A stretch of 64,000 nucleotides of DNA. Source: Acholoe squamosa. Its lineage: Eukaryota; Annelida; Polychaeta; Phyllodocida; Polynoidae. Below are positions 1,487 through 52,048 of the stretch, piece by piece (the stretch's first letter is position 1; the number at the start of each line of letters is the position of its first letter). Where the stretch lies: contig OX439044.1 in the NCBI GenBank assembly GCA_949317995.1, positions 46,952,166-47,016,165 on the forward strand, written 5' to 3'. Both the position numbers and the translations under genes were made by a program. Under the pieces are notes generated by a model that saw nothing but the letters and a program-made list of their open reading frames with translations, had not been told where the DNA came from and made no database searches.

Positions 1487-1534
1487 GTTTCGGGGGAAGG
1501 CTACCTTGCACCTAGCAACCCCGCCCCCACCTCA

Positions 1535-2422
1535 GTGAAAAAGAAACCTGGAACGCCCCCCACAAGCCATCAACCTACTGGTGTTCACAGTGATGCAGAA
1601 CTCAATTCACTACGGCCCCCTACCAGCAAAAACAAAATAAAAGCCCAACCAAAACTGGATTACAGCTCATCTTCAGACAGTGAGGACTGCTGTGAGGACG
1701 ACAGCAGGAGAGTGTCCAGACTGCGACTTAGGATCAAAACAGATAAGTATGGGCAGCAAGGTAAGGTCTCTTACATTAATACTGATTTGACTAAGGGATC
1801 TGTGTTTGTCGACATAAATGACCATCTATACAGAGCATTGATAGACTCAGGTGCCTCCCTATCTTTTATCAGCCAGAAAATGGCAGATAGAGTGTCAAAC
1901 AGCCCCAACTTCCTCCATGGTAAAAGATCCAGACTCGTTGTACTCCTAGCAGACAAATCCTCAGTACAGGTAAACAACTCAATAACACTAAAATTCTTGA
2001 TTCAGGGAGCAGAATTCTCTTGTAAATTCCATATCGTCCCCAAACTAAACCACCCACTCATCCTTGGCGTAAATTTTATGACCAAATACAAGGCCAGGCT
2101 CAGTTTTGGACCAAAACCCCTCATAGGGTACCCAATCAGACCTACTGAAGATTCAATCATCCCACCGAATTCTGAAGCAACTCTAAATGCCTTTGTAGCT
2201 GGGCCACAGGAAATTATTAACTCAACAGGCATCACTGAAAACATTGGTCTCAGATTACCAATACTGATCAAACATGCCTTGGTTAAACCCAAGACAGAAT
2301 CAAAATTAATACCGGTAACTATGGCAAATCCAAATGATTTTCCCGTACCATTGAAAAGACATACCACCCTAGGTACCTTTAAGCTTTTCAACATTAAAAG
2401 CTGTGCCCATAGGTTCCCTTGA
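1535..2422 (+). CDS. pol: Retropepsin-like aspartic protease region
   Basis: This 295-codon frame follows gag by about 50 bases in the same frame class, and overlaps the RT frame by about 20 bases. The active-site motif L-I-D-S-G-A-S lies at residues about 102-108 (Asp104), with the flap and second strand further on, ending in a hydrophobic I-L-G-V motif as in retropepsins. The Ser/Asp-rich N-terminus is probably linker. The opening codon is not ATG, so translation is probably continuous with gag by recoding. The -1 type offset to the next frame at 2403-2422 could be a programmed frameshift or a mutation. Confidence 0.75.
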   Translation: MKKKPGTPPTSHQPTGVHSDAELNSLRPPTSKNKIKAQPKLDYSSSSDSEDCCEDDSRRVSRLRLRIKTDKYGQQGKVSYINTDLTKGSVFVDINDHLYRALIDSGASLSFISQKMADRVSNSPNFLHGKRSRLVVLLADKSSVQVNNSITLKFLIQGAEFSCKFHIVPKLNHPLILGVNFMTKYKARLSFGPKPLIGYPIRPTEDSIIPPNSEATLNAFVAGPQEIINSTGITENIGLRLPILIKHALVKPKTESKLIPVTMANPNDFPVPLKRHTTLGTFKLFNIKSCAHRFP

Positions 2423-4724
2423 CAACCAGCAGCCTTCAAAAAAGGACAGCAGACCTGCCAAAGATCTTTTCCCAATTAATTGTGGGGATGATCCATTGCA
2501 ACAGCTCCCTAAAAGCAACGAGCCTCTAAAGTATAAAATCTGTGAGCAGCTCAATGACAAACAGAAGGAGCAAATCCGCAATATTGTTGAAGAAAACAGG
2601 CAGGCCTTTGTACTTAATGACAGTGCTATTGGTCTAAATGTAGAGAATGAGATCAAACTTGAACTGATCCCAGACTTCAAACCCTGTAACAGACCGTCAT
2701 ACAGAATGTCCCCACACAAGGAAATTTTTCAAAGAGAGCTCCTGGAGAAACACCTGAAACAGGGAGTAATTGAAGAATGTACAAAACCTTGTGAGTGGAA
2801 CTCCCCAGCCTTCTTGGTACCAAAACCCCAAGGCGACAGATCTGTAGCATCAGGGTGGAGAATTGTAGTGGACTACAGATGGGTTAATCAAAACCTCAAG
2901 TCTTTTTCATATTCCTTCCCCAGGGCAGACGATCTCATGCAGCAAATTGGTAGAACAGGCGCCAAGTTTTTCTCTAAATTAGATGTCTACAGCGCCTACC
3001 ACCAGATCCCCCTAGCGGAAGAATCCAGACCAATCACCACCTTCTCTGCAAATGGAACCAGATACATGGCAAAAGTATTACCTATGGGACTCAAAACATC
3101 AGGCTTATCCTTCATGAATGTTATGGAACAGCTACTCATGAAATGTAAATACAGAAATGCTGTAGCCTATGTCGATGATGTAGCCATATACAGTCCCACC
3201 TGGGAGAGACATCTACAAGATCTAGATGAGGTACTCAAACTTTTCATAAAGGAAAATATCAAACTGAAATCTGAAAAATGTGAATTTGGCACAACCAAGA
3301 TGGATTTCTTGGGTTTTTCTGTAGACCAACATGGTGTGTCACCTTCCCCAGACAAAATCTGGCCAGTCAAAACCTTCCCACCACCTAAAAACATCCATGA
3401 CCTTAGATGTTTTAATGGTATGGCACAATTCTACAAAAGATTCATTAAGGGTTTTGCCCACATAATGAAGCCCCTCTATGATGCCACCAAGAGTGCTTTT
3501 GTATGGACCGCAGACTGTCAAAGAGCCTTTGAGAAAATCAAGGCCTCAATCTGCACTGAAGCCATCCTCAAGTTCCCTGATTACAGGAAGCCTTTTGTGA
3601 TTTTCACTGACTCAAGTAATTACAGCCTAGGAGCTGTGATCACTCAGATTGATGAACATGGTTTCTACAGGCCAATAGAATTTGCAGGAAGAGGTTTGAC
3701 CCCTCAAGAAACCAGATATGGTATAACAGACAAGGAACTCTTAGGTATTGTCTATGCAGTAAAGAAATTCCACCACTATGTGGATGGAACCCACTTCAAA
3801 GTGTACTCAGACCACACAGCCCTAGTCTCTCTTTTTAATAAAAAAGAGAATATCACAAATGGAAGATTGGCTAGATGGGTGGATACAGTCATGTCATACG
3901 ACTTTGAAGTAAAATACCTGCAGGGCAGAGCCAATATTGTGGCTGATTTTCTCTCCAGGAGAAAATACCCACCAAGCTCTGATGATCCAGTACCAATAAG
4001 ATCAAAGGGACAGATCATCCTCCCCCCTAAGAAAGTGACTTTCTCTGATATCACCATGACCAAGGTTTTCAAATCAAACGCGCCAGTACCAAATAATCCT
4101 GTTTTAATGGGACCTCCCAGATCAATATTAAAGGGAGGAAGGATTTGGGGAAGTACAGGAAAATTACCAAGAGGAGTGGTTGCAAAGAAAAATAGCTCTG
4201 AAAGAATATATTCTGAAACACCCAAGGGATATTCAGAGCTGTGCGTCTTGACCAGGGCCCAGTCCCGGAACACACAAGACATACCCCCGACCATCGACCA
4301 ATCAGAACCCAGCACCAAGCACACCAAGCCGACCCGACCTAAGGAGGTCAAAACCACCACAACTAGGTCAAGGGGTCGACCCAGTGCGTCCAGGTCACCC
4401 AGGGTTTCAGTGAAGGCCGCCAATGCTAGAAGGGTCAAGTTATCTCAGAAGGTATTACCTATAGCTGAGAGCGCCATCACCAAAATTTGCAAACATCACT
4501 CCCTCACCCCATTAAGAGAAGCATTAATTGAGGCCCAACAAAAAGACCTTTTTGCCTCATCCATGCTAAATTACATTGAAAAAGGTCAATTGCCACATGA
4601 CTCTGGTTTAATAAATCAGATTTTAAGAAACCATGATCAGTTCATCATTCTTGACGAGGTACTTTTCAGGATCACAGATACTGTAATGGGCCACTCATTG
4701 AATCCACCCACTGCTCACCTCTAG
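2403..4724 (+). CDS. pol: Reverse transcriptase-RNase H of Ty3/gypsy Pol
   Basis: A 773-codon frame. RT spans residues about 90-270, with F-S-K-L-D-V-Y-S-A-Y-H-Q (motif A) and Y-V-D-D at 256-259. RNase H follows with F-T-D-S-S at about 401-405, D-K-E-L-L, and Y-S-D-H-T-A-L near 465. The fusion order RT then RNase H, with the VDD box, is classic Ty3/gypsy. Residues about 540-700 form a basic Ser/Thr/Arg/Pro-rich linker containing an AT-hook-like R-G-R-P. The frame ends just inside the integrase zinc-binding region, where the next frame takes over at about 4720, so a frameshift breaks Pol here. Confidence 0.9.
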   Translation: MPIGSLDNQQPSKKDSRPAKDLFPINCGDDPLQQLPKSNEPLKYKICEQLNDKQKEQIRNIVEENRQAFVLNDSAIGLNVENEIKLELIPDFKPCNRPSYRMSPHKEIFQRELLEKHLKQGVIEECTKPCEWNSPAFLVPKPQGDRSVASGWRIVVDYRWVNQNLKSFSYSFPRADDLMQQIGRTGAKFFSKLDVYSAYHQIPLAEESRPITTFSANGTRYMAKVLPMGLKTSGLSFMNVMEQLLMKCKYRNAVAYVDDVAIYSPTWERHLQDLDEVLKLFIKENIKLKSEKCEFGTTKMDFLGFSVDQHGVSPSPDKIWPVKTFPPPKNIHDLRCFNGMAQFYKRFIKGFAHIMKPLYDATKSAFVWTADCQRAFEKIKASICTEAILKFPDYRKPFVIFTDSSNYSLGAVITQIDEHGFYRPIEFAGRGLTPQETRYGITDKELLGIVYAVKKFHHYVDGTHFKVYSDHTALVSLFNKKENITNGRLARWVDTVMSYDFEVKYLQGRANIVADFLSRRKYPPSSDDPVPIRSKGQIILPPKKVTFSDITMTKVFKSNAPVPNNPVLMGPPRSILKGGRIWGSTGKLPRGVVAKKNSSERIYSETPKGYSELCVLTRAQSRNTQDIPPTIDQSEPSTKHTKPTRPKEVKTTTTRSRGRPSASRSPRVSVKAANARRVKLSQKVLPIAESAITKICKHHSLTPLREALIEAQQKDLFASSMLNYIEKGQLPHDSGLINQILRNHDQFIILDEVLFRITDTVMGHSLNPPTAHL

Positions 4725-5239
4725 GTGGCCACCTGGGTTCAGTGAAAACCTATGCAGCCATAAGGTCACGTTACTACTGGCGCTCAATGTTCAAACAGGT
4801 GTTTGATTTTTGTGGCACATGTCATGCATGCCTCACCACCAAAAAGAAGCCCAAAAATCTCAAAACACCTATGACCCTTCGTGAACCGGTACTGACTGCC
4901 TATTCCCATTTAACTATGGACACTATAGGCCCATTCTCCAAGGCTGTAGATGGCTCACACTACATACATGTAGTGACAGACCATGCCACCAGGCATGTCA
5001 CTGCTTGGTCAACCGAGGAAAACACAAGCGCCATTGTGGCACTTGGATTCTTCCAAAGAGTCATTTGCATCCATGGTACACCATCAGTACTTAACACCGA
5101 CAACGCCAAACAATTCATCTCAAAATTCTTTGCACTTTTCTGCAAGAAATTTGGCATTAAACATGTCACAGGGTCAGCACATTGGGCAGATCACAAGCTC
5201 TATGTGAGCGCAAACACCAGACTATTGAATCCTCCCTGA
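4712..5239 (+). pseudogene. pol: Integrase, N-terminal and catalytic core part (frameshifted)
   Basis: From about 4724 the frame reads G-G-H-L-G then C-G-T-C-H-A-C, the second half of the HHCC zinc site. The catalytic core has a first Asp in T-M-D-T-I-G-P-F and a second in N-T-D-N-A-K-Q-F. The frame fails near 5190, where the catalytic Glu region appears in another frame. Both the join to RT and the join to the C-terminal part are therefore broken in this copy. Confidence 0.8.
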
Positions 5240-5928
5240 GAGCTTTTGTGTCAAAATCACAAAAACACTGGTCTACCTTCTTACAGGCTGTAATTTTCAG
5301 CGCTCTAGGCTACTCACCAAACCTTTTGGTATTTGGCAAACAATCTCACTTGCCAACAGAAGCAGCCCTAGCACTAGGCACATCACTAAGTGATGTCAAA
5401 CAAAGGGAAGGTATGGCCCTACATTTGCTCAACCTCAGGGATGATATTCAATTGAAGGCAGCAGAAAACATGATCAAAGTTCACAAAAAGATGAAGGCGA
5501 AACATGATGCCTCAGCAGAACTTAGTACATATACCACAGGTCAGCTTGTGTATTTACACATTCCCAACCTGTTGGCAAAACATACAAGCAAAAAGCTGCA
5601 GCCTACCTACTCTGGCCCATATATCATCGTGAAAATGACCTCATCAGTAACTGCAATTGTCAAAAGATTGCAGGATGGCAAAGTTTTCAAAAAAGCAGTA
5701 CATGTGTCCAGATTGAGAACACCAACATCCAGAGCCAGCGCCAAAGCCATAGTCAAAAGACTACAGACTGGCCCGGCTTTATCTCTCTACGACCCAGATT
5801 TGAACTTAACACCTTCTACCAATACCCCCACTCCCCCACCAAAAAGAAAGAGAGGGAGACCAGCCAAAAAGGGTATTGTCAGCTTCTCACCACCTAAAAA
5901 GGCTAAAAAGCGCCATCAGCAAAAATAA
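5182..5928 (+). pseudogene. pol: Integrase C-terminal part with AT-hook-like tail
   Basis: This frame begins with C-E-R-K-H-Q-T-I-E, the catalytic Glu region of the integrase core, then carries the conserved C-terminal block that binds DNA (G-Q-L-V-Y ... Y-S-G-P-Y-I-I-V). The last 30 residues are very basic and contain K-R-K-R-G-R-P-A-K-K, an AT-hook core. No chromodomain is seen. It is the third segment of one integrase split by frameshifts. Confidence 0.8.
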
Positions 5929-7224
5929 ATACGCAAACTACACACTCTCACACACCAAAAAGCACAGCCCCCCCCCCAGCACCACAACCAAATACACGGC
6001 AAGTCAAACATACCTCCATCCTATGCACCAGTGATCTGGATAACCACCACGTGCCTACACCTTGATCCCTGATCAAGTGCAGAAATCCGCATCCAACACC
6101 GCCCCCCCCCTTAATTTGCCAAACATATTACCCTCAGAGCATATACATACCAACCACATTGCACCCAGCGCCCCACACGCCACCTGTCCAACACTAAATA
6201 CTGACCACCCCCCCAGAAACCTCCCAATACTCAACCCCCATTCCAGATTTTCTTTCTTTACTTTTCTGTTTTCTATTTATCAATTTTTCCTTCTCAAAAA
6301 CACCAATACACCTTTTTCCTTTTATTGTACGTTGTATGAAAGTTACACAACACTCACATGAGTCTTGTAGATTTAGTTTTTCCGCGCCCATGGACGTTCT
6401 CAGCACCCCCACATTTAATGGTTCGATACGCCACATATACTACCCAAGGCAGCAGTGCATTCTAGGGTATATGTATAAAATTTTTATTTTATATATTCTT
6501 GCACCGGCTTGATGGCTTGTCAGGACTCCTGTTAAATTCGGTATTCTTGCCACCGACACGCCTACTGTAGGAGTCCCTGTCTCCCATGCTCCAGCCATGT
6601 TTGCACCTCTGTTTTTCTCAGATCCAGTAATGCAGGTGGAATACCATTTTGATTGGCTGTAATCAACCACAGCCCCATTTTCACGCCAAGCTTCCACAAA
6701 GCAGGCAACCCACCTGGTCAGAATTCAATCATAACCTTGACCTGCATCTACCAACCTTCTTGACCTAAAAATTCCAATTTTTAATCAATACATACCAGGC
6801 CTCAGCGCTGAGGCCACCAGAAATTTGCATACGGGGCAGGCCTGCCCCCACTGCATATATCCAATAAGATAAGGCCTAGCCTTTTAAGGGCAAGACATAC
6901 CTACATGGGAGATCTGCAACTGAGGGTTAGCTTCCCTCACGACCAGGTTTATAAGCCTTGACCCACCCCAATCTTATCCATTCTCAATAATACACCATAT
7001 CCAACCACTTCCTGTTTTTCTGAGAGCAAGTGCCTGATTGAAGTTAACCATGGCGAACAGGGCATGCAGCCAGCCCAGGTAGGCCTGTCTTAAGTGTCCA
7101 CTTTAGTACATAGACCATCAGTCGTTCTTGTATTTGGTAATGACATATTTATTGTCATACTGCCCAGACTCCTCAATTCACCAATGGTAGTGTGAGCTCA
7201 GAGTATCAAGAAAAAGTTGAATGA
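5929..7224 (+). other. Non-coding stretch between pol and envelope-like region
   Basis: No convincing gene is seen. It is C-rich at first, with several runs of 8-9 C, then AT-rich around 6240-6500. A leader or splice region for a subgenomic transcript would be expected here, but I cannot place a splice site with confidence. Confidence 0.5.
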
Positions 7225-8545
7225 TCTTCACTCTTCACTGCCCAATATTTGTGCCTGCTGAATCCTCCATCTCGTGTGAACCTAACATCTCAAATACACT
7301 CAACCAAAACCTATTACACAGGTAGACTTACCCTGCAAAATTTTATTCTTTCCAACCACAGATTGGATACCATTGATTGCTGGACCATACATGACCTATT
7401 GGGTCCTGTGGGATTATTGGACGCTGATAGAGAAATCCTTGAATTAAGATCTCTCATCTGCCGGTATAGGAACTTGGTCCTGGGAATATCCCCCTGTGAC
7501 GTGGCTTTCTATTTGACAAACCCTGCTGTATTAAAGCAGATGGATTTAACCAACGATCGCGTTCAAGCTGTCATAAAAACAGTACTTACTATGGTGTGCT
7601 CTGACACACCCACTAAACCTATCTGGGCGAGGTTTGACCAGCATGTGGCTAGTTACTTAGCCCTATTGAGCGCAAGGATGCTCCTGGCTTCAGAGAAGCC
7701 GCTAGCTAATCTGCCTAGACACTATACAAGTGTCGGCAGAAGTCTAGCAATCAACAATTCGATAGATCTGGTTCTCCAACAGGCCATCTTTGAATGGTAT
7801 CACTGGTCAGGCAGGTCCAGATATTTCCGGCTCCAAGTACCCGGCTTAGACTCACGCAGGGGTAAGCTACCTACCTTCACATATTATATTTTTATAATTA
7901 TTCTTAACACCTTACTAACCAATATTACACAAAGACACCACCCTACCCCACACCCCTGTTTCCCCCAAACCTGTTATCTCACCAATACCCCACACATAAC
8001 CACCCACACACAAACAAACACCCAATGCAAGACCCCCCCCCCACATACACACACAAACCGCTACTCCCTCATGTCATTTCAAAACCATTTTTCTAAGACC
8101 CTACATATTTTTTAAATTTTTTTTTAGGGCTGCAGTCCTGATGACTACCCTAGCAGCAATCCTATCCACAACCGTCGGATTGGTACACCAGGAATTTAAC
8201 CAAAGGACCATCTTCAGACCAAACTTTGGAGTGATTTTCACAAAAATGGACCAACCCCTCCTCTCCAACTATATGGATTACCCACTAGTATTAAGCCTAA
8301 ACCTGACCCTAGACCAGCCCCTCAGAAAACCAGACAATATCTCACCACTAGTGAAGCCCACCGCACCTCCATACATAACCCAAACAGCCACAAATTTGGA
8401 TCACATGTTAGATAACCTTTTCTACAAATCACAGACCCTACTGAATGATCTAATCAAAATTGTAAGCCCGCCCAGCATGAGATATCCAAGAAACGCCCCA
8501 GGCCAGCCCATAGGAGATCCTGGTAGGCTTGGGAACACAGCCTGA
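7225..8545 (+). CDS. Envelope-like region, N-terminal part, with predicted intron 7862-8135
   Basis: A frame open from about 7225 (no clear ATG) reaches a strong donor (G|GTAAGC at 7862). A T-rich tract and an AG at 8134-8135 allow a GT-AG intron whose removal keeps the frame into the 8141-8545 segment; the earlier AG at 8126-8127 would give a stop almost at once. Position upstream of an F1-like segment suggests the surface or F2-like part of a retroelement envelope. Sequence identity is not recognised directly. The frame is lost near 8530 (breaks are described, not repaired). Confidence 0.5.
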
Positions 8546-9722
8546 AATTGATATCCTAAATTCAGAAATGTCAGAATTGGATAAAAGATTCGCTACCAAA
8601 ATGCATGTAGTTGAACTAGCCACACACTTCCTATTAAATATGTCAGAATATAATTATCACACACTCACCGCCTTCTCAGAATTCCAAAATGACACAGATG
8701 ATGCCTTATCACTGTTAGCAAATAGATTTCAAAATTTAAACTCAAATCTTTCTGACATTTTTCTAAATCTGGAATCACAAACCAAACAAGATACCTTCTA
8801 CTCCATGCTATTTTCGGCCGCAAATTCACAAATAGAATCACTCATTGATCTCCATGATAATTTAAGTAACCTACTATCTGCTCTAAATTCACTCATGGAG
8901 GGCGAGCTACCCCTTACCCTTATTCCACACGACACATTAGAAATAGGACTGAATAACCTTTCAGACCTCAGTAGCAACCACCCAGAAATAAATATTCTGA
9001 AATTACCGGTAGACTTCTACTACAAAAGGAAAGTTAGAGCACAGTGGAATGATAATACCACATTATTTATAACCATACCGGTACCCATAGGCCTAGGGGA
9101 AAATACCTATTCCATATATAGAACAGAAACCTTCCCCATCCCCTTCGATACCTCCGACCCCCATTCACTAGGATACACCCTTTTACAAAAACTACCCCCA
9201 TTTATAGCATTACCACCAACCCACTCACACTACATTGAGCTACAACAAGCCGACATGGACCTATGTACACATGATACCTTTATCAGTTGTGACCTGCCCC
9301 TACCCTTGTTATCACCCCTACACCCCACATGCTCCCTGTCACTACTGTTAGATACACCAGATGCAGTACACCACACATGCAGCTTTGCTGCACACATGTC
9401 CGCCCCCATTCCACGCTTAGTTAAGTCTATATCACACTCAGACTACCTATTAATTACCAATGAATCACCCTCACTTATGCTATGTCCCAATGAAGGCCAA
9501 ATTGAGCTTAAAAACGCAGCCTCTTCAGTAATATCAGTGCCATGTATGTGCTCAATTAGAAATGCTGGAATGATAATGATAAATTCAAACCTTTCCTGCA
9601 TACATAACACTACACTACAGCCCCTTGTTAGGATACCCATCAACCTCCCTCTATGGCGCCATTTTGGCAACCCACCAGCCAATGTTTCAGGCGTCACCAT
9701 GACAACCATCCCCGGACCCTAG
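8511..9722 (+). pseudogene. Envelope fusion-subunit-like segment (Baculo_F/errantivirus type)
   Basis: The open frame starts just after a stop at 8511-8513; no ATG is evident. It has a hydrophobic Gly-rich start, a heptad-like helical region (residues about 10-130) rich in Asn, Leu and Glu, then a Cys-bearing domain ending near 9720. This layout resembles the fusion subunit of Baculo_F-type envelope proteins found in insect errantiviruses and related gypsy elements. A frameshift separates it from the upstream segment and another from the downstream one near 9715, so no intact envelope is encoded. Confidence 0.5.
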
Positions 9723-10778
9723 ATCTACCAAATTTTGAATATTTAAAACACCTCCACAACCAAAGATTATTGCCTATTTTTAAAGAAGTAATCGCCCTCA
9801 GGAAAGCCGCCCTGGGTTTGACCAAGTCAAGACCCTTCTTGTCAGTGAACACATTAATGCATCTTGGCTACCATCTGGAGTATTCCCCCTGGTTGCATCT
9901 TCTTTCCCCGCTACTGGCCATCTTGTGTTGTGCAATCACGTGCCACGGTCAACTGCGCGTGACGAGACTGGCGCAGCTAGTCACCATGCACATTGCGCTG
10001 AAGACACCAACCATGGCGGACGCGACAAAGTTCGACACCTTAAGAAAGCTAGTGCTGAACATCAGCAGCTTGTGGCCGCCTCAGGCAACAACTTCGCCAC
10101 ATGCAGAGAGCAGCATGGAGGAATACCAATCTCCATACCAGGCCAGCAGGTATGATACCATGTGGGCCTGGATCCTGGTTTTCCTGGCTTTGTACCTGGC
10201 CCGCGCCTTGGCCAGGAGATGCTGGCGACACTGGCCCTACCTGGCCAAGGTGGATGATATCACCGAGATGCCAAAATTCGTCCTCCAAATCCACTCAGAG
10301 GGTAGGACCTACGACTTCGTCGTCGGCAGAATGATTTTCGGCAGAAACCTGTGGCCTTTTTCCATTATGGCACCCAAGGTGGCTAAGCCCCGACTGACCA
10401 GCCCTTTCGGCCGCCATCTGGAAGTGGAGTGGAAGGGGGAAGTGACCTTTATAATCGCCGGGAAGATCAAGCAGGTCAAATTGGAGCGCTACCCGAGATG
10501 CCCTCTGTTCTGGAGGCTACGACTCTACAAGGCTCTAACATCCAGCCCCCATGTCTTGACCCTGGTGATTAAGGAAAAGGGACAGCCGGATTTCCAGCTC
10601 TCACCATCAGACACTGTCCCAATGCCCCAGCTATCACCACCCACAAGATATAGATCCTCCTTATGCCCCAAAATGGAAGTCCCCTCTACCTCTAGGAGTT
10701 TAGTGGAACTCACTAAGTTCACTAACCTGGAGCTACAAACGGGGTCAGATAAATATCCCAAAAAGTCATCCCCCAGCG
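9653..10778 (+). CDS. Envelope-like C-terminal segment with membrane spans, ending at a splice donor
   Basis: The early part (from about 9720) continues the expected envelope alignment after a frameshift. A hydrophobic stretch lies near residues 80-100 and a clearer transmembrane helix near 170-190, followed by Arg-rich residues that would face the cytoplasm. About 150 further residues are not recognised. The frame runs into a consensus donor (G|GTAAGT at 10779), so the coding part probably ends there rather than at the stop at 10798. Confidence 0.45.
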
Positions 10779-11732
10779 GTAAGTTTATTTATTTTTAATC
10801 TAGAAACCCACAACAAGCCACATGTGGGGATCATCAATTGGAAATCAGGCGGCAATTAAGCCACCTTGCACCCTGTTAAAATCATGTAAACAGACCCCAA
10901 CCCCTCTCCATGAACGACCCACCGGATAGCCCCACCCCAGAGGAGATCACCTTTTATGTGGGGATAAGCCCATAAACAACTCAGCCCAGCTACTCCGAGC
11001 CCAATGCTTCACACCATCTTCCCACGGCCCCCAACCCCACTCAAAAACCCAAACCCCATTACCCCCCCCCAAATCAAAATTCGTATAGGTCACCATTTCA
11101 GTAGAGCACATGTGCACTGGCTAAATCAAAACAAACCGTTATCAGTATACCCATAACCATAACAACGGGGGAACCACCCACTCTATGTATAGAACAGGTG
11201 TCCCCGCGCGTTGATAGTGGACGCCCGGCGAATTCAGCCACGGCACTGTTCCCCGATCCAGGAGATCATAGCAGAAAGAAAGCTCGGGCCCAGGCGGCGG
11301 CAAAGCAAATCAAGCTCACTATATCGACTCCCCTGAACCCCAGCATCCCAACTGCCTATATGTGTTTGATTTCAAACTGGCTGAGAGGGCCTATTACATA
11401 ATCTATGGTAGGTAAAATTTCGACTCACCATTCCAACATGGCCGAGTTTCAGTTCATGACGGAGACCACTGTCCCACCCCAGCGACTACCGGCCACCCCC
11501 ACAATCATATAACTTAGGACCGTCCCGAGGTTATACCCAAATGTCAGTAGCGTTTGGAAACCCCAAATCATTACAATACCAATGCTACTGTATTTTGTTT
11601 CATGGTCGACACACAGACAAATTAACCTTTTGGTCAAATTTCGGTATTTTTGTGGACCGCCTTGTGAACCATACAATGTTTTCAACCTGTTTCTAACGTC
11701 AGACACCCCTCTGTTTTTGTCTCTATCTGCAG
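10779..11732 (+). other. Predicted second intron of the retroelement
   Basis: The donor GTAAGT at 10779 and an acceptor with a long pyrimidine tract ending CTGCAG at 11732 define a 954-bp intron. Joining phase 1 to the downstream frame stays open until 11905. The interior contains no gene I can support. cDNA would be needed to confirm splicing. Confidence 0.5.
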
Positions 11733-36682: not shown

Positions 36683-37429
36683 CGTGTGGTGAGGGAGTTG
36701 CGTTCAACGATATCAATCCAGGAGGTGAGCATCCAAATAGATTTCGCCGAAAACTGGATGATAACCTACCCTGAGGGCCCACAGAGTGTTTACTTTGCTA
36801 AGGAGCCGGTGACCCTCCACCCTGTGGTAATACACTTCAGGGAGGAGGGCACCGGTGATACCAAGCATTGCTTGCTGGCCCTTGTGACTGACGTTCTGAA
36901 GCATGATGCAGGTGCCATTCTTTCGTTTCTGGTTGCAATAGTAAGGTACATCAAGCAGAACCTTCCAGAGACAGTGAGAATGTTGCACTATATGTCCGAT
37001 TCTCCCTCATCGCAATATCGAAACACTTCGATATTTTCGATCCTGTCTCGGCACAAGGGGTTCAGGGCAACCTGGAAGTACTTTGAAGCAGGCCACGGGA
37101 AGGGGCCGTGTGATGGAGTGGGTGCAGCCGCCAAGTGTAATGCGGATTACGCTGTCCAGCGTCGGTATCTCATCAAAGATGCAGCGGACTTTGCCAGGAT
37201 TGGGAACAATCCCAATAACTTGGCAAACTGTGAGGTACCGACAAAGGTATATTATGAGTGCATCCCGTTGGAGGATGTCCAAGCTGGCCGTGAAATGCTA
37301 AAGAAGATTAAAGCTGACGATAGCTTGGAGGGAACCATGGGGTTGCACGCAGCTGTTCCAATTGCACAGGGCCACTCACTAGCTATCCGTGCAACCTCAT
37401 GTTTCAAGGAGTGTTGTTGGAAAAACCTT

Positions 37430-38554
37430 GAGTGAGTGAGTAATAGATGTTTAACGCCATTTCAACAGCTACGGTCATATTCATGGCGAGAATGACATTA
37501 CACAATTTCACAGAGGAATGTGTTGGTGCCCGCGCATATGTGCACCACACACATCCTGAGGGGACAGGAAAGAAGAGATATAGACCCTTTTAAGTGGGCT
37601 AGGGAGGCCCGCGGAAAAACCTTGAGTTGCAGAGGGGTTGTGAAGGGTGGGAGGTACCCAACCTGCAATTTACCTACCGTGAACCTCCACAACCCCGACG
37701 CACTCGGTCCGTCCAAGAAGCACCCACTCCTGAAGAACAGCCGGTGCAAGTAGAGGTTGGGGATGTAGAGGGTGCGGACATAGATACACCAGGACAACCA
37801 CCAGAACAACCAGAGCAACCACCAGAACAACAACCAGAGGCTACTGAGGCTGGCCCAGAACCATTCAGGGAGCTGAAACGTTATGCGGTTGGTACATACG
37901 TGGCCTGTGTGTATAACAACCAGTGGTACCTGGGCCAAGTTTTGCAACGTGAGTGAGTGAGTAATAGATGTTTAACGCCATTTTGACAGCTAAGGTCATA
38001 TTCATGGCAAGAACTACATTACACAATTTCACAGAGGAATGTGTCGGTGCCCGCGCATATGTGCACCACACACATCCTGAGGGGACAGGAAAGAAGAGAT
38101 ATAGACCCTTTTAAGTGGGCTAGGGAGGCCCGCGGAAAAACCTTGAGTTGCAGAGGGGTTGTGAAGGGTGGGAGGTACCCAACCTGCAATTTACCTACCG
38201 TGAACCTCCACAACCCCGACGCACTCGGTCCGTCCAAGAAGCACCCACTCCTGAAGAACAGCCGGTGCAAGTAGAGGTTGGGGATGTTTGTTTGTTTAGT
38301 TTTACGTCCGGGGGCCATAAAGGAACTCAGACATTCAAGTTGGGGATGTAGATGTAGAGGGTGCGGACATAGATACACCAGAACAACCACCAGAGCAACC
38401 ACCAGAACAACAACCAGAGCAACCACCAGAACAACAACCAGAGGCTACTGAGGCTGGCCCAGTACCATTCAGGGAGCTGAAACGTTATGCGGTTGGTACA
38501 TACGTGGCCTGTGTGTATAACAACCAGTGGTACCTGGGCCAAGTTTTGCAACGT
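37430..38554 (+). repeat. Tandem duplication, 521-bp offset, each unit with a SINE C
   Basis: GAGTGAGTGAGTAATAG at 37430 recurs at 37951, and the following SINE and coding sequence match through the E-L-K-R-Y-A-V-G module. The second unit has extra Pro-Glu-Gln repeats and a 51-bp element D insert (38288-38338, duplication GTTGGGGATGT at 38277-38287 and 38339-38349). The SINE came first, then the duplication, then element D. Confidence 0.88.
37433..37612 (-). mobile_element. SINE type C with 14-bp target duplication
   Basis: GGAAAAACCTTGAG flanks it at 37419-37432 and 37613-37626. Confidence 0.92.
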
Positions 38555-43396: not shown

Positions 43397-43610
43397 AGTG
43401 ACAACGGCCCACAATATTTATCGGCCAAGTTCAGTAGATTCGTTGATGACTGGGAAATGGCACATAACATCATCTCCATGTGATCCTCAATCAAATGGGG
43501 AAGCAGAACGACCTGTCCAGACTGTGAAAAAGGAGGTGAAGTGCAATTAGACTGCAATGTGCAGTTATGTCTTTTGGGACAAACTGCACCGTTCAAAGTG
43601 TGGACAACTA
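43397..43610 (+). pseudogene. Ty3/gypsy integrase core relic
   Basis: After a few bases the frame reads N-G-P-Q-Y-L-S-A-K-F, then, with a frameshift, S-N-G-E-A-E-R-P-V-Q-T-V-K-K: the second Asp neighbourhood and the catalytic Glu region of a gypsy integrase. Confidence 0.75.
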
Positions 43611-44587
43611 TTATAAAGCCTGTCTAGATAAAGAGTCTCCATGACTTGCGTGCTGCAGTGATTGACAAGACCAAGGGAACATGTCTACATGTGTTGGTGT
43701 AGATGCTATTTCCATCGTTTGCAAAAAAAAAAAACACACAAATGACAAGGGTCAGAAGGTTGACAGAAAAATGTACATCCTCAATGACCGCTGAGAGGCT
43801 TTTCCCTACCAGCATCAGTGACCGGCTCACCACCCTGATGCAAACTGCTACACCCACAGGGAGCGCATCAGTGACCTGCTCACCACACCAGACGCCAACT
43901 GCCACACTCACAGTGAGCACATCAGTGATCATTGGCTCACCAAGCTCGACATCCATTGCCACAGCGCTTGGTATATCTACGAAACAATGCTACATATACC
44001 TCTACAGAACCTGCCACAACACCTGCAGGAGCAAACACACCGAAAAGTCAATCTGCTACATCTAGTGGTTTTCGGTCATCAGGCCATCCATAAAAAAAAA
44101 TCTGTTTCCGGTCGACCGGCCGGGTGACTTTTTTCCCTCATCTCACCCGGCCGGGGTATAATCTTTTTTTTTTTTTTTCCCTCCCCCCAAATAGCTGGTG
44201 AGTACACCACACAGGGAAATGTTATCTGTAACTCGAAACAACCACAGAGATAGCTCTTGTGGGGCTCTATCAATGAACGGCATCATGGTGGGGCAGCAGT
44301 TCCCGTGTATATCTGTCAACGGCATCATGTCAGATTTCATGACGTCACAAGCTGCTTTCTGCCGTGGTGTGTTCTTGTCGTCTGCTTCAAACAACTAGAT
44401 AGATAAAGGTAGGTTTATATCTATAATATATAAAATATTTGTCAAATAATAAGATCAGCTCACATAGAAAGAGCTGCACATGTAGTTGGAGGGGTTAAGA
44501 GTTGGATTAAGTGTGTTTATGGGAGATCTTTGGCCTCACGGGCATGGCGGTATGTGACAGGGAGACTGAATGACATGGGTACCATTA

Positions 44588-45122
44588 GGGAGTGGTCATT
44601 ATTTATCAACTGGGGGGTGGATTTTTTTCGCATAGATGCACAAAATTATTCCATGCCCCCCTCCCCCCGGTCAATTTTTTTTTAGCTCCCCCCCCTGCAC
44701 CTGAGGCACAGATTATTTTCGTGCCCCTCTTTGATCTATACCGTAAATTCTCTCATATAAGCCATGGCTTATACCAGGATCCAAATCAAAATTAGGCTTA
44801 TAGGATAAGTCAAAAGAAGGGATGCAGCTTATGAGGGTTTTTGGCATTATAGAACAGTACTAAAACTACAATTTTCAAGCATCAGATGCACCTCATAGGC
44901 CCTTCCAAAGTAGGGGGTGCGGCTTATACGAGGGATGCGGCTTATACGAGAGAATTTATGGTAGTAGCTTGCAGCTTTTTTACTAAAAAGAGGGTAACTT
45001 TTTTAAGCCCCCCCCCCAAGAGGGGTCAATAGTTATTACGCCTTCCCCTCAGGAGGGGTCTGAAATTTTTATGACCCCCCCCCAACCCATCCTCCCCTTT
45101 TTGATAAACTATGTCCACTCCC
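44588..45122 (+). mobile_element. MITE of the GAGTGGTCATTATTTAT family, with nested MITE
   Basis: The left end GGGAGTGGTCATTATTTATC and the right end reading GATAAAC ... CCACTCCC are inverted. G/C runs lie inside. The nested TA-flanked MITE lies at 44741-44961. Confidence 0.7.
44741..44961 (+). mobile_element. TA-flanked MITE (CCGTAAATTCTCTC type)
   Basis: 221 bp, ends CCGTAAATTCTCTCATATAA and inverted AGAGAATTTATGG, with TA at each side. The same family is at 46704-46926. Confidence 0.85.
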
Positions 45123-45156
45123 GTTCAGGCTGATAGTCTGTACATGAATGGCTTAA

Positions 45157-45401
45157 GGGGGGTGGTCATTTTTGAACAAGTGGGGAGGGGTGGCAGACAG
45201 TTTCATGCATGCACACCAAAAAACCAAAAATGTATCAGTAACTTCCTCACAGGGGTCTTGAAATATTTTCAGCACCCCACTTTTGTTTTATAGTAATGAA
45301 CAGGCCATTTTACTGGAAAGGGGTGAAAATATTCCTGCCCCCCCCTCCAGTGAAGGGACTGAAATTGTTTGTTACTTTTGTGTTAAAAAATAACCACTCC
45401 C
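45157..45401 (+). mobile_element. MITE of the GAGTGGTCATT family, diverged
   Basis: GGGGTGGTCATTTTTGAACA opens and a stretch ending AATAACCACTCCC closes it. A further half copy is near 45640-45722. The remaining 45.4-46.6 kb shows no gene. Confidence 0.6.
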
Positions 45402-46579
45402 AGATTCCTAGGTAAGGGGTCAAATATTGTTCCACAAAAAGAAAGCATGCTTATATATTTTACTTGGGTGACACCTTTACAGCAAAATGTCTTTGTTTTT
45501 CATTTTCAAAAGGGATGTTCAAAAAATGTTGACATGCTAACTAATTTCCCCTCTGCATGCTGGTTGGGGAAAGCTTTTTGAAGGGGCTACAGCTGCACAC
45601 CCACCCTCCTGAAATGGTCTACAAGCCACGGCTTATACATGGGGTTTTACAATAATCTTTTAATATCCATCCAAAATATCACCACAACCCCTCCCCCGGT
45701 TTCTGTCATATAATGACCACTCCATTTATAGGTTTAGGGGAGACAAGGCCTGGTACTGGATGGGGGAGGGTGTAAAATGTGTACTAGAGTATTTACCGTA
45801 AACTTCCTGGTATAAGCAGCACCCCCAAACAACATGTACCTTGAGTTCAAAGTGGAGATATAGGCCCCATCTAAGAGTAAGAAAATTTGCAGGTTACATA
45901 CTGTTCTAAAGATAAAAAAATCATATTCAATGCAATGAGCGCACATCCCATAATAAGTGCACACCACTTTGTTTTGCTCAGATATTTTACTCAAAATTAC
46001 CAAAAGCTTTCCAATTTTGAGGTCCAATTAAACTCTTAACTACTGATCAAACATACACTAATTAGATTCACATGCACTTAAATATGGATCAAATTGAATG
46101 TGGATCCTTAACTCTAACCCTGACCTAGGCAGATTCTTTAAGGTATGGTAATATATACACAGCAGTTTTATGGTACATATAGTCACCAGGGACAGAACAC
46201 AAACAGCTGGCCCCTGTTTCTGTCATCACCTAATTGTCTCCACCACCCCCTCCTCACCCGGTTCCTGTTACTACTATCAGTGGTTTGTCAGCTGATAAAT
46301 GAACCAAGTAATAGTAAAACACTAAGGTCTGTGCATAGAGGTAGTATGTAGACTTGCATAGACCTCTCAGATTTGAAGAGATCCCAGATTTTGTAAATTT
46401 TGTTCAGCCCCCCCCCCAAGACTCTGGAACAGTTGGGAAAATATTGGGGTATGTGAAATCTGACCCCCTACCCCCAACCCTCCCTCCACCATTCTGAATT
46501 GGGTTCTGGTACTAGCTGCGGCTTATATGAGAGAATTTTTGGTAATATTGATTATGGTAATATTGATAGAAAGTGAAGC

Positions 46580-46685
46580 GAGCGAATCCGTAGACAAGAT
46601 TTTTTTCAAAGAAAAAAAAAATTTGCATTTCCGAAAATATGGAGAGGGCGATCCGTAGACCAACTTATTTTTTTGGTGTGGCCTT
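46580..46685 (+). mobile_element. Right end of an AGGCCACACC-type MITE
   Basis: ATCCGTAGACCAA ... GGTGTGGCCT matches the right end of the element at 33711-34170. An inverted inner copy (CCGTAGAC) is at about 46590. Confidence 0.6.
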
Positions 46686-46703
46686 ATCATTGATTATTGA
46701 TTA

Positions 46704-46926
46704 CCGTAAATTCTCTCGTATAAGCCGCATCCCTCATATAAGCCGCACCCCCTACTTTGCAGGGGGCTATGAGGGGCATCTGATGCTTCAAAATTGTAGT
46801 TTTAGTACTGTTCTATAATGCCAAAAACGCTCATATAAGCCACACCCCTTATTTTGGCTTATCCTATAAGCCTAATTTTGATTTGGATTCAGGTATAAGT
46901 AGCGGCTTATATGAGAGAATTTATGG
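46704..46926 (+). mobile_element. TA-flanked MITE (CCGTAAATTCTCTC type), second copy
   Basis: 223 bp, CCGTAAATTCTCTCGTATAA to an inverted right end, with TA on each side. It lies just upstream of the transposase gene's predicted 5' splice acceptor. Confidence 0.85.
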
Positions 46927-47169
46927 TAAAATGCATGTATAATTATTATGTGCATATAACACTCAAGAAGGAGCATAGGGGCTAAGTTAAAGAAAAGGCA
47001 TTAAGGATGCCAGGACTGGCGTTTGGTTTTGGGGCCTTTGCAGCCATGAAATGAGCAAAAACATTGTACACTGGGTTGAACTGAATTTAGAAGGACTCAT
47101 TGTTTTCTTTTGTATTCTTACAGAACCTACTAGAAACAGCAGTGAGGCGAAAATATAGTACAAAGCAAC

Positions 47170-50100
47170 ATGGCATCCAGTAGTGATAACAGAATCTACT
47201 CAGTCTGTGTCACTGTGAATGTCCAGAAGTCTGGATCAACCAACACCTCTACTGTTGTCAACAACAGGATAACACAGTTTCCAGAACAAACTACTTTCAA
47301 GTTATTTCTCAATGAGCTTATTGAAAAGCTCAATCTTGGACAAGAACTTTTGGATCGAAGAGGTCTAAATATAAAAGTATCTACCCTTCACGAAAAGACA
47401 TTTGAAGTGAATGAAAATGATGTGCTGGGAACTGCTATGCAGTTTGCAGATATCAAATTTATTAGATATCATGCTATTATCAAGGAGGACTCCCCAAAGC
47501 CTGATCCTCCGAAAAAGGATGCATTTGTTGTATTGATGAGCTCGAGTCAAAAGCCATTGGATCCACTACCTGAATCAAACCAAAAGAACAAACTTCATAA
47601 TGCAGTCTTAGGTGACCTGCAAGAGCATGGACCTATTCGAAATCAACACTTCACTCAACAAGATGGTAGTAGTGTTCTGCAGAAAGTCACTAATGCACTA
47701 TGGTATTTAGATGGACGGCAAAAAATCATTGAAGATTGTGTCAATGCAAGGGGCAGTGCCATCACAGCAATACCTTCCCGTTTCAAGAAGTATGTTGGTT
47801 TTCAAAACTGGAAAGAGTGGAAGAAAAAGCCAAGAATAGACCAGTCAAGTTGTCACGAGTTTGCAGAGTCTCTTCTCTCAACATTACAGAGGAAGGCCAT
47901 AAAATGGCCAGAAGGATGGGCTGAAGATATAATATCACTCGCATCAACCTTTTCGACCTATGCCCAATATCTGAAATCTTCGAATGAAAATCAGCAGCAA
48001 AGGCAGTGCCAGCTAACTCCTATTCGAGAGCTCAGCAAATATGCATCTGCACAGTACAGGTCACCAGTAGCACCCGAAAAAGTTCATAAAAACTTTAAGA
48101 TGTTATCTGAGTTGATGGAACAGCAGACAGACTATGAACCAGTACTTATCAATAACGAACACTTCCCAAGCCCACTTGATTCCAGTCAAAAGTATTACTT
48201 CCTTAACAACATAGCTCTGGCTGTCCCAGTGCAGCACATCAGGTATGATGCAGGAGGTGGTACATCAGTCATGCATTTTCTTTATAAGGTCCCACTGTCG
48301 CTTAGTGGAGATGAGCGCATGACATCAGCCATGCGCATTCTGAAAAAGATTGAGCCCCAAATCCCAGTGTATCACACCAGGGCCATGAGGAAAATGTTTC
48401 AGGAAGAAGTTACTAGCCTTCACAATGCAAACATTCCACCTCATGTACTTCGTCATATATACAGACGTCTCACTGGAGATTCATCTGCAGAAACTGTATG
48501 TGAATCAATAGATGAACGAATTAAAGTTGCCATTGAAACAGGAGACCCAGACCTTATACTTGATTTACGGCATCTGAACCAGGGTCGTCCTGGGGACACC
48601 TTCGAAACTTTCTTTGAAGAATTGGAGAAATTAGTAGAAGAAAAAACTGCAGCAGATGAGAGGAGGCATGGTATTGCTCATATGAGTGAGTTTCTTAGTA
48701 TCAGAGATTTGATAGAGCAAGTCAAAGAAAAAGTCCCAGAGGGCAGTCCAATCCCATCTGAATCTACAGTGATATATTCATTTTCTCCACCAAATACCCA
48801 CTCCCAAACATCACAGTATTATACTGGGCGTATCAAACTGAAACATGCAGTTCAGAGTCGTCAACTTAGAGCATTCCACCAAGATGCACACTATTGTAAT
48901 GCACTCTTCAGGTATCTCAGAGAGATGTCTATTCTGCATCAAGAGAATTCACTCTTCCTGTCGTGTGACGACAAAGCGAAAATCGATTTTGGTGAGCCTG
49001 GCCTTGCCATGTCATCAGGGGTCAGAGGAAAGCAATCTATTATCCCAACAACTAGCTTCTTAGGAGCACTTGACCATGACATGGAACAGAAGGGGAGTTT
49101 GACACCATCTGTAACACTGAATTGTGACATCCCTGAAAATATTGATGAATCATTCTACAGAGGTCAAGTAAGCGTCTGCCTGAAGGATTCAGTGTTTCAA
49201 CCTAGTAGTAGCTTCAGATCAACATTGGAGCTATTGAATACTGTCAAAGAAGCCAACATTGAAGAAGGGTCTGTGAAAAATGTGTTCATGATAACTGATG
49301 GGAGCCCTGAACACAGAGTAACATTTGACTCTGTGAAAATCCCACTGATCTTGTTGTTTCGAGAGTTGAACCTGGACATGCTTGTAGCCATACGCACAGC
49401 TCCTGGTCACAGCTACACAAATCCTGTTGAGCGGGTGATGAGTATTCTTAACATTGGGTTCCAAAATGTAGCCCTACAGCGAGAAAGTACACAGTCAGAC
49501 GCAACAATCAAAAAGTGTAGGAACATACAAGACCTCCGCAACCATCCTGAAATTCGGGAAAACTGGAGAGAATCACTACAGCCAATGTTAACTGTTCTGG
49601 AAAACCGGGTTGAAAGACTAGCCTTGAAAGGAGTCCCCTTCAAGGTTACAAAGGCAGCATCTGATGAAGAGGTCCAGGACTTTGTGGCAAAGTCTGCTGA
49701 GATCGATGAGAACTTACCCATTCTTCACAAAGCTGGCAAGCTTACAAAAGCAAATCTGGCATCAAAGCGCTCCTATCAACAATTTTTAGAGCAGCATTGT
49801 CAGCAAGGTGTCTATTCTTTCCAGATCCGCCGTTGTGACAATGAAGAATGCTGTCCTGGGGAGCCCCTACCAGGAAATCTTCATTGGTTGCCACACCCAA
49901 AGCCTGATGTAAATAATCCAGGACATTACATGGATTTTGCCACACTGTATGGCAAAGATAATACAGGGAGTGAGGACTATATTCCATCAAAGTTGAATGC
50001 AACTGGCAAGGTCACAGCTGAACAACAGGGATGCAAGGCAAGTACACTAACAGCACAAAATGTCCGTGCTGTAACAAGGTGTACAAACTGTCAGAAGCCC

Positions 50101-50502
50101 CGCTGTATCTATGCAGAGAAAAAGCAAACTCCGAGAGAATCAAGAGAACTTGCATCTGTGTTGCGCAAGTATGACTACACCTGTGGATGCATGATCACAC
50201 CTGATGTCAGCCTACTGTCAGGGGTAGTTTTTACAAGATTGGATATCACATGTGAAAGTCCACTAGAATGGGCATATTATGGTGCCACCAAAGTAAATAC
50301 TCAAACTGACTTGTGTGCACATTGTGGAGGAAAGGGAGCAAGCCCTGACAGAGAGCTTAAGAAGGTGTTTAAAACGGTCTTACCTATCTGCGCAACATGC
50401 CAGATCAATGGCAAGCAGTGCCTAAAGCGTGGTCCACTGCCAGGAGCAAAACGTGCAGGAAACCAAATGCAAAGCAAAGCAAAGAAAGGCAAACATACAT
50501 AA
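47170..50502 (+). CDS. DDE transposase-like protein, 1,110 aa, intact single exon
   Basis: A 5'-UTR intron acceptor (T-rich tract then CAG at 47121-47123) precedes the ATG. Residues about 8-100 look like a compact N-terminal domain, perhaps ubiquitin-like. The middle is helical. The catalytic candidates are Asp601 in S-C-D-D-K-A-K, Asp710 in I-T-D-G-S-P-E-H-R and Glu754 in N-P-V-E-R-V-M-S (D-x108-D-x43-E). The C-terminus (870-1100) is Cys-rich: C-D-N-E-E-C-C-P-G, C-T-N-C-Q-K-P-R-C, C-G-C, C-A-H-C, C-A-T-C, probably zinc-binding, followed by a Lys-rich tail. No stop or frameshift is present. AATAAA lies at 51034. It is inferred to move the element whose inverted ends flank it; a host-domesticated role is the alternative. 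Confidence 0.8.
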   Translation: MASSSDNRIYSVCVTVNVQKSGSTNTSTVVNNRITQFPEQTTFKLFLNELIEKLNLGQELLDRRGLNIKVSTLHEKTFEVNENDVLGTAMQFADIKFIRYHAIIKEDSPKPDPPKKDAFVVLMSSSQKPLDPLPESNQKNKLHNAVLGDLQEHGPIRNQHFTQQDGSSVLQKVTNALWYLDGRQKIIEDCVNARGSAITAIPSRFKKYVGFQNWKEWKKKPRIDQSSCHEFAESLLSTLQRKAIKWPEGWAEDIISLASTFSTYAQYLKSSNENQQQRQCQLTPIRELSKYASAQYRSPVAPEKVHKNFKMLSELMEQQTDYEPVLINNEHFPSPLDSSQKYYFLNNIALAVPVQHIRYDAGGGTSVMHFLYKVPLSLSGDERMTSAMRILKKIEPQIPVYHTRAMRKMFQEEVTSLHNANIPPHVLRHIYRRLTGDSSAETVCESIDERIKVAIETGDPDLILDLRHLNQGRPGDTFETFFEELEKLVEEKTAADERRHGIAHMSEFLSIRDLIEQVKEKVPEGSPIPSESTVIYSFSPPNTHSQTSQYYTGRIKLKHAVQSRQLRAFHQDAHYCNALFRYLREMSILHQENSLFLSCDDKAKIDFGEPGLAMSSGVRGKQSIIPTTSFLGALDHDMEQKGSLTPSVTLNCDIPENIDESFYRGQVSVCLKDSVFQPSSSFRSTLELLNTVKEANIEEGSVKNVFMITDGSPEHRVTFDSVKIPLILLFRELNLDMLVAIRTAPGHSYTNPVERVMSILNIGFQNVALQRESTQSDATIKKCRNIQDLRNHPEIRENWRESLQPMLTVLENRVERLALKGVPFKVTKAASDEEVQDFVAKSAEIDENLPILHKAGKLTKANLASKRSYQQFLEQHCQQGVYSFQIRRCDNEECCPGEPLPGNLHWLPHPKPDVNNPGHYMDFATLYGKDNTGSEDYIPSKLNATGKVTAEQQGCKASTLTAQNVRAVTRCTNCQKPRCIYAEKKQTPRESRELASVLRKYDYTCGCMITPDVSLLSGVVFTRLDITCESPLEWAYYGATKVNTQTDLCAHCGGKGASPDRELKKVFKTVLPICATCQINGKQCLKRGPLPGAKRAGNQMQSKAKKGKHT

Positions 50503-51033
50503 GAACTCAAGACTGAAGATGCATTTAAAGCAGTTAGCAAAACAAGAATAATTGATTCTGGCTTTTGGTACAATCGTATAAGGCATACCTGTTTTGTGTG
50601 TAAGACTCAAGTTATGTGTGGGTACTGCAGGTGTACCAATTATCAACTTTTGAGTTAAAGATTAACTTTTTACATATATGCTGGGTATATTCTATGTGAC
50701 ATATTTTCAGGAAGGACCTATGCCAGTCTAGTATCCAAACAGAGCAGGAGGCTTGTCACCACTGAAGGCAAGATACACTGTGCCTTGTCTTTTACTAACG
50801 GCTATTAAACCTTTAGGTGGCATGGATTTCATGATGCATGAATGCAGTCCTGGAGAGTTACTCGTCCCCCAGGATGGATTTATGCTTCATGCCAATCCTA
50901 ATAACAGGTTAATTTTTGATGCAGTGCCAGTGAGTAACTCACTAGAAATGCATTGGTAGATCTTGGTAACAGAGCTTTGAGACATCATTTAATAGGTCCT
51001 TAAAGGACACTAACTTGTAGTTGTAATGTGTAC

Positions 51034-51039
51034 AATAAA
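51034..51039 (+). terminator. Poly(A) signal for the transposase gene
   Basis: AATAAA, 530 bases after the stop codon, on the same strand and before the right terminal repeat. Confidence 0.5.
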
Positions 51040-51464
51040 GATTACATATGTTTAACTTGTTTTATGTGTTGGATGTTTATTTCTTTTTACCTTTAAGGGC
51101 TGTATAATGGTTCAAATCATGTGTCTGTTTTCCAGTATGATGTAAACATGAAGCACTGAGAATTTTATTTGCTTACACTACATTGATGCATAATGCTGGT
51201 CTTTTAGGGCTGTATCACTCTCCCCAAAGATCAGCATGGTGCCATAATGCTGATAGAAGAAAAGTAGTCTCTCTAGGGCTGTATCTAAAGGGCTTCTGTA
51301 TGTTTTACAGGGTTATTGTATACCGATAACACTGATGTCTGCACTGGGCCTTTCCCCAGTAGAAAAAAAAATTAAAAAAAAAAGAAAAAAGATTGAGGCC
51401 GCCCGGGTGACTTTTTTTTAGGCCACCCGGTCCACCGGAAACAGAATTATTTTTATGGATGGCC

Positions 51465-52048
51465 TCATTACGGAAGGGAAAGTTGGTACACCATGTAAAG
51501 CGAAACTAAAGCAAAGGATTGACTTCATGACGGAAAACACACTTAAGCTGAAAAGAGAAAAAAAAACTCTAAATAAAAGAGCTAAAAGCAAGACTCAAGG
51601 TAACAGCAGCAAAGAAGGCTCAAAATCAAACTTTGCAGAGAAGACTAAAAAAATTAAGTGTATTGAGAAAACAGCTGAATGACGTGCTGCTAAAAAAAAA
51701 CTGTCCAATTTTCAAAGGAGAGAGACCGAGAGAAAGGTAAGACAAGAGTCAGCCAATCTACTTCAGCTGACCCAGAAAATGGTGAGATAATTTGTCTCAA
51801 AAATGCTTGTATATGACTCAATAGTAAACAATGTACCAATACATAACATCCCTCTTTCACACTTGTGTCTTTACTGAGCATTTTGATCTTTTCCTCAAAT
51901 TCCTTCAGGAACGTGTGTATTAACACTTCTTTCTTACTTTGCCACTGCCATTGAGAGAGTAGAAATGCAAGTCCTTGGGCTTGTAGGTAAGCTCTTTTAA
52001 GGACCCTGGAATAGGAAGTGTTTTACCTCAGCAGAGAAGCAACAACAC
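51465..52048 (+). other. Short Lys-rich ORF region of unknown nature
   Basis: An open frame to 51682 encodes a Lys/Glu-rich, possibly coiled-coil segment. It starts inside the terminal repeat of the transposon and may be an old exon into which the transposon inserted. No family is recognised. Confidence 0.25.

Follow-up and report, generated by a model that had tools for sequence, protein, structure and literature searches.

A probable autonomous Zator-type transposon and its near-identical short copies in the genome of the polychaete Acholoe squamosa

The stretch of Acholoe squamosa DNA analysed here (GenBank assembly GCA_949317995.1, contig OX439044.1, positions 46,952,166 to 47,016,165 of the forward strand; 64,000 nucleotides, hereafter the window, whose own numbering is used below) carries a complete transposon of 7,383 bp (44082–51464) with one uninterrupted gene for a protein of 1,110 residues. 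The element is very probably an autonomous cut-and-paste transposon of the Zator kind, a eukaryotic counterpart of bacterial ISAzo13, that moves short copies of itself, and it appears to have been active recently. Matched to Zator by description, not by reference sequences, it would form a new family of this known but rare superfamily. The original prediction, made from the letters of the window, had proposed that a DNA transposon lies here complete, with its DDE (Asp-Asp-Glu) transposase gene intact, and the ends, the target-site duplication (TSD) and the uninterrupted frame all bear it out.

Results

Ends, gene and catalytic core

The element is bounded by terminal inverted repeats of 38 bp. 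The left one (44082–44119, forward strand) starts with GGCCATCC, and the right one (51427–51464, reverse strand) is the complement of the GGCCATCC end, finishing at 51464. The two are identical at 35 of 38 positions when the right end is reverse-complemented, and the similarity stops beyond base 38; the inverted ends predicted earlier are present, but they are 38 bp long, against the 39 or so proposed. The TCA duplication of the target, also foreseen, occupies 44079–44081 on the left and 51465–51467 on the right. The transposase gene (47170–50502, forward strand, as are all features with a strand described below) runs from ATG to TAA in a single frame.

The predicted model of the protein contains an RNase H-like catalytic domain (residues about 590–770, 48937–49479), the fold expected beforehand for residues 580–780. 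D600 (codon 48967–48969), D710 (49297–49299) and E754 (49429–49431) lie on this fold; by predicted structure and conserved sequence, the protein is a DDE transposase. The nearest solved folds are Mos1 and Metnase, with a sequence identity of 12–13% over the fold. A sequence search of the Protein Data Bank with the window protein returned chance-level matches alone, and a search of a viral structure library gave no match at ≤0.001. A helical region that precedes the catalytic domain (residues about 402–560, 48373–48849) may correspond to the part of Mos1 and ISAzo13 that binds DNA.

Conservation of the acids was assessed in an alignment of 22 rows, the window protein and 21 relatives from a protein search, and in a second set of 72 relatives. 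All 22 rows keep D600, D601 and D637; D710 and E754 are each conserved in 21, the remaining row having a gap. The D710–E754 spacing is 43 residues in 21/21 rows and in 71/71 of the second set, a further row of which has E in place of D. In seven bacterial relatives the residue aligned with D600 is D, whereas D601 is replaced by T, A or S. Since they keep D at the former and not at the latter, D600 is the better candidate and probably the first catalytic acid. Two of the three residues originally proposed, Asp710 and Glu754, therefore stand, and Asp601 gives way to its neighbour.

Relationship to bacterial ISAzo13 and to Zator

The link to ISAzo13 runs through relatives and profiles. PF07592 (ISAzo13 transposase) is matched by P0004 alone of the 22 proteins (1.8e-7), and NF033519 (ISAzo13) by two of them at E ≤ 0.1 (best 2.4e-5). 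A profile search with the core recovered 506 proteins at E ≤ 0.01. At least 120 relatives were listed, their named sources including molluscs, an echinoderm, a lancelet, a fish and Rhizophagus, and the second set consists of 72 aligned out of these 120. Three of the 72 match PF07592 (best 7.3e-12) and three match NF033519 at E ≤ 0.001; zf-CW is the sole further Pfam family in this set (two matches, best 1.5e-4). PF07592 is the sole DDE family in the Pfam scans of the 22 and the 72 proteins.

Compared with a profile of bacterial ISAzo13 (seven sequences, two of them incomplete), a ten-member core profile reached 94.9% (E 4.8e-8) with all D-D-E acids aligned, the 72-member set 94.8% and the full 22 92.8%. 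A longer 22-member core gave 94.2%, against 0.2% for its reversed control. Four of five column-shuffled controls remained at 0.3, 0.1, 0.4 and 0.1%. The bacterial proteins share with the window protein DxK...GE, DH and PxxxSxxNxxE-type motifs, whereas their D–E spacing is 42 residues (7/7) and not the 43 of the window protein and its relatives. They are also shorter (about 400–700 residues in the records examined, against 1110), and the bacterial elements with clear ends measure 1.6–1.75 kb, against 7.4 kb. With its 1110-residue protein and 7.4 kb in a genome of 1.48 Gb, the element is thus no compact bacterial insertion sequence.

Seven plasmid loci, some with short flanking DNA, were scanned for inverted ends, once on condition that the 3-bp flanks and the first two bases were equal, and once with the flank rule dropped and 20 shuffles per locus. 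At L053 and L061 the ends pair at 18 of 18 bases, start with GGG and have TTA on both sides (shuffles reached at most 14); the GG-ends and the T-N-A target are features that these two have in common with the A. squamosa element. A GGG pair with TTA at L056 (14/18), taken alone, is at chance level, L059 has a weak GAG pair alone, and the scan gave nothing above shuffles at L054 and L058.

The paper that named Zator reportedly traced it to TP36 (Pfam07592) and characterised it by 3-bp duplications. In the excerpted text of other publications, Zator resembles ISAzo13, both making 3-bp duplications (PMC10045372), is paired with ISAzo13 (PMC5718144), stands beside Tc1/mariner in the IS630 group (PMC7386202), is reported in bivalves (PMC10294476) and is named among the profiles used in a paper on Rhizophagus transposons (PMC11075540). 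The published marks are all found here: an ISAzo13-related transposase (via relatives and profiles), a 3-bp TSD and a eukaryotic host. Terminal inverted repeats and, in the predicted model, an RNase H fold with D-D-E agree with Zator as well. The original prediction could name no superfamily that the N-terminal domain and the Cys-rich tail match; because the ISAzo13 domains of some relatives, the profile match and the 3-bp duplication fit the published description of Zator, the element may be placed there as a new family.

Copies in the genome

The genome of the window was searched for the first 31 bases of the left end; two-letter codes stood for positions at which left and right disagree, and up to three mismatches were allowed. 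Other loci with the same ends, on which the original prediction hinged, do occur: the motif has 47 sites, against 0 for a reversed-pattern control at the same threshold. Of these sites, 42 belong to 22 complete copies, two of which had one end alone detected at ≤3 mismatches, and the other five are ends that lack such a partner. Besides the full element, the 22 comprise 21 internally deleted or rearranged copies. Seventeen of these measure 392–402 bp, two have 1887 and 1888 bp, one has 916 bp, and a short copy that carries an insert reaches 1001 bp. In the consensus of the seventeen (~395 bp), element bases 1–239 are fused to 7226–7383; the 1.9-kb form retains bases 1–243, about 1190–2293 and about 6831–7383, and the 916-bp copy bases 1–244, an inverted 2083–2231 and 6855–7383. 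Aligned pieces at the deletion joins overlap by 2–5 bases, as in microhomology repair.

The 17 short copies diverge from their consensus by 0–1.0% (mean 0.39%), in agreement with the youth earlier ascribed to the element; short copies keep both ends and match the full element there at 98–100%. Older pieces, 75–88% similar, exist beside these near-identical copies, which gives the family an older history besides its recent burst. These older pieces are undercounted, since the DNA search scored 40 of 652 first-look candidates. No second intact transposase gene was found in the genome, the remaining matches being partial. One candidate, C10:72424618–72426039, was rejected because it is split between different frames that overlap, a pattern taken to reflect frameshifts; introns of very small size may account for the frame changes instead.

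Several diverged loci were also seen. L051 (C10:72420500–72430400) and L052 (C1:104323500–104332500) hold relatives of the transposase, 32–40% identical and with stops or frame changes, that look degenerate and come from another lineage of this kind. At L047:501 (C2:70022162) and L048:4490 (C15:21615459) a variant of the terminal repeat occurs, identical at the two loci over 31 bases, with no partner end within the DNA fetched around these loci; a sister family is possible. An older copy of about 1.4 kb with diverged ends, TCA on one side and TGA on the other, lies at L045:5933–7326.

Target and empty sites

Exact 3-bp flanking duplications are present at 17 of the 22 copies. At all 22 sites, on both sides, the trinucleotide is Y-N-R (T or C first, the middle free, A or G last), mostly TNA. 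Three short copies (L021, L024 and L042) are inserted in repeats, and related loci without the insertion were found for each. The empty sites of L021 (80% alike, TCA once) and L024 (81% alike, TGA once) are clean. The three uninserted comparisons of L042 (78–80% alike) have AAG, AAA and AAA against CAA, a trinucleotide that has drifted in all three.

The site at which the full element is inserted (43400–44081) appears by eye to be decayed retroelement-like sequence with one integrase-like frame (SSPCDPQSNGEAERPVQTVK). When the flanks of the element were joined and read in six frames, no interrupted host gene was seen.

Accessory domains

The N-terminus of the protein (residues about 7–105, 47188–47484) forms a ubiquitin-like (beta-grasp) domain according to structure comparison of the model. 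VIA-align places the N-terminal matches within residues 1–111, and the folds matched there are, to judge by their names, ubiquitin-like. The N-terminal Foldseek matches (FERM, staphylococcal superantigen-like proteins) were rejected as hints of function, and the fold alone was taken from them. Structure matches mostly cover residues 565–868 in the full model and 4–107 in the N-terminal model, and little can be read into the missing matches for residues 118–400 and the tail. Pfam searches with the whole protein, the N-terminal 114 residues and the C-terminal 258 residues gave nothing credible. At residues about 118–128, after the ubiquitin-like domain, comes an AFxxLMxxS-like motif; in the alignment, by eye, it also occurs in P0003, P0004, P0006, P0007, P0016, P0017 and P0021.

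The C-terminal tail (residues 876–1077, 49795–50400) is rich in Cys and His (H876, C877, C889, C894, C895, H919, C971, C974, C1005, C1028, C1049, C1052, C1074 and C1077). These residues are conserved and probably form zinc sites. At a guess, the ubiquitin-like N-terminus and the tail might serve DNA binding, multimerisation or contact with host factors.

Other features of the element and the window

Subterminal palindromes were read from the sequence at both ends of the element, CCGGCCGGGTGA...TCACCCGGCCGG on the left (44116–44154) and CCGGGTG...CACCCGG on the right (51403–51430); the left one is a possible extra binding site for the transposase. The acceptor-like TTCTTACAG ending at 47123 and the AATAAA at 51034–51039, a possible polyadenylation signal, both foreseen between these ends, are present as sequence signals. 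With a donor-like AG|GTAG (GT at 44409), the acceptor would delimit a putative intron in the 5' untranslated region (44409–47123). This interval holds two copies of what looks by eye like a separate small repeat, in opposite orientation (44743–44960 and 46705–46930), around CCGTAAATTCTCTC(A/G)TATAAGCC.

Elsewhere in the window, long frames at 71–5928 resemble a Gypsy-like retroelement, with matches to RVT_1 and RNase H models at 2403–4724. Two overlapping long frames of 397 and 381 residues lie 3' of it (8529–10798), the former without a Pfam match. The frame at 36686–37435, also without a Pfam match, shares by eye an SPxSQYRN-like stretch with L051:1290–2441; both are possibly another kind of transposase.

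Discussion

In the reading that we favour, the transposase would recognise the 38-bp ends, and its DDE site (D600, D710 and E754, as fold and conservation suggest) would excise the element. Insertion into a Y-N-R trinucleotide, usually TNA, would occur with a 3-nucleotide stagger, and repair would leave the 3-bp duplication, an outcome displayed by the duplications and empty sites of the copies. The same protein would most likely mobilise the short deletion copies in trans, since these keep the ends, match at 98–100% and have no other intact source that could be found. In the protein, an ISAzo13-like core is flanked by the ubiquitin-like N-terminus and the Cys/His tail.

Several results weigh against this reading. 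No transposase model of Pfam or NCBIfam is matched by the window protein itself, matches to ISAzo13 models are confined to a few relatives, and the link runs through relatives and profiles. In the profile comparison, one column-shuffled control in five rose to 15.1% (E 0.0017). A tblastn search of plasmids with the relative P0034 gave one significant match (3e-4, annotated as a transposase) among at least ten records; the other nine had E of 0.08–4, three being annotated as ISAzo13, one as SIR2 and the rest carrying no annotation. A PF07592 search of the genome gave nothing, and neither did its controls, hence it is uninformative. Clear ends with TTA on both sides were seen in two of the seven bacterial loci alone, and the GGG-ends of L055 (16/18) have TAA on one side but TTA on the other. 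The model of the full protein is moderate (predicted local distance difference test, pLDDT, 75; predicted template modelling score, pTM, 0.45). Five of the 22 duplications mismatch at one base, and the alignment of flanks suggested earlier, which recovered empty sites for L021 and L024 and a drifted one for L042, failed for the element itself, whose flanks matched themselves alone in the genome.

The five mismatches exceed the 0.5 expected from the 0.39% background (Poisson P 2e-4). In all of them (L012, L015, L016, L019 and L022) the base adjacent to the element, on the strand that reads into GGCC, is G (G|GGCC) and the far copy has A; a chance of 1 in 32 attaches to the same direction in all five, and three of the five are also explicable by CpG decay. 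The adjacent G is a lead from small numbers. It enters a more elaborate account, which we regard as unlikely, in which an active Zator is the sole intact source of the short-copy burst, the ubiquitin-like domain couples to a host partner of the ubiquitin or SUMO type, and the G is a trace of end processing, the last gap base being copied from the element end or carried over from the donor.

Another unlikely reading is a separate eukaryotic lineage, related to Zator, whose descent from ISAzo13 was independent of that of the named Zator families. The relatives are numerous, 506 in the core profile search against the 44 Zator elements alone that the excerpt of a mollusc survey reports (PMC10294476), and the protein is larger than those of bacterial ISAzo13; yet every published Zator mark is present and no distinguishing feature was found. 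Adoption of the gene by the host, between old transposon ends, might be suspected from the single intact copy and from a gene that is uninterrupted while other matches are partial. It is very improbable: the ends are intact, the TSD is perfect, the near-identical short copies speak for very recent movement, five of the 21 relatives, from other sources, also exceed 1000 residues, and the triad is kept. Membership of Tc1/mariner, Academ, KDZ or another superfamily is scarcely credible, for although the best solved folds are those of mariner (Mos1 and Metnase, SETMAR), the identity to them is low, PF07592 is the only DDE family listed for the proteins scanned (which bears on Academ and KDZ in so far as Pfam has models of both), and the Y-N-R sites of all 22 copies differ from the TA that IS630/Tc1/mariner elements generally duplicate according to the excerpt of PMC10045372.

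Zator appears to be among the less studied superfamilies of eukaryotic transposons; in the part of the open-licence literature that was searched, none of the titles listed concerned its biochemistry or activity. As an intact gene, exact ends, a target preference and short substrates are defined here together, activity is directly testable. The value of the element would lie in this young pair of an autonomous transposon and its miniature inverted-repeat transposable elements, and interest attaches also to the two extra domains. The T-N-A target and GG-ends common to two bacterial ISAzo13 copies and the A. squamosa element suggest that a mechanism has been conserved between bacteria and animals.

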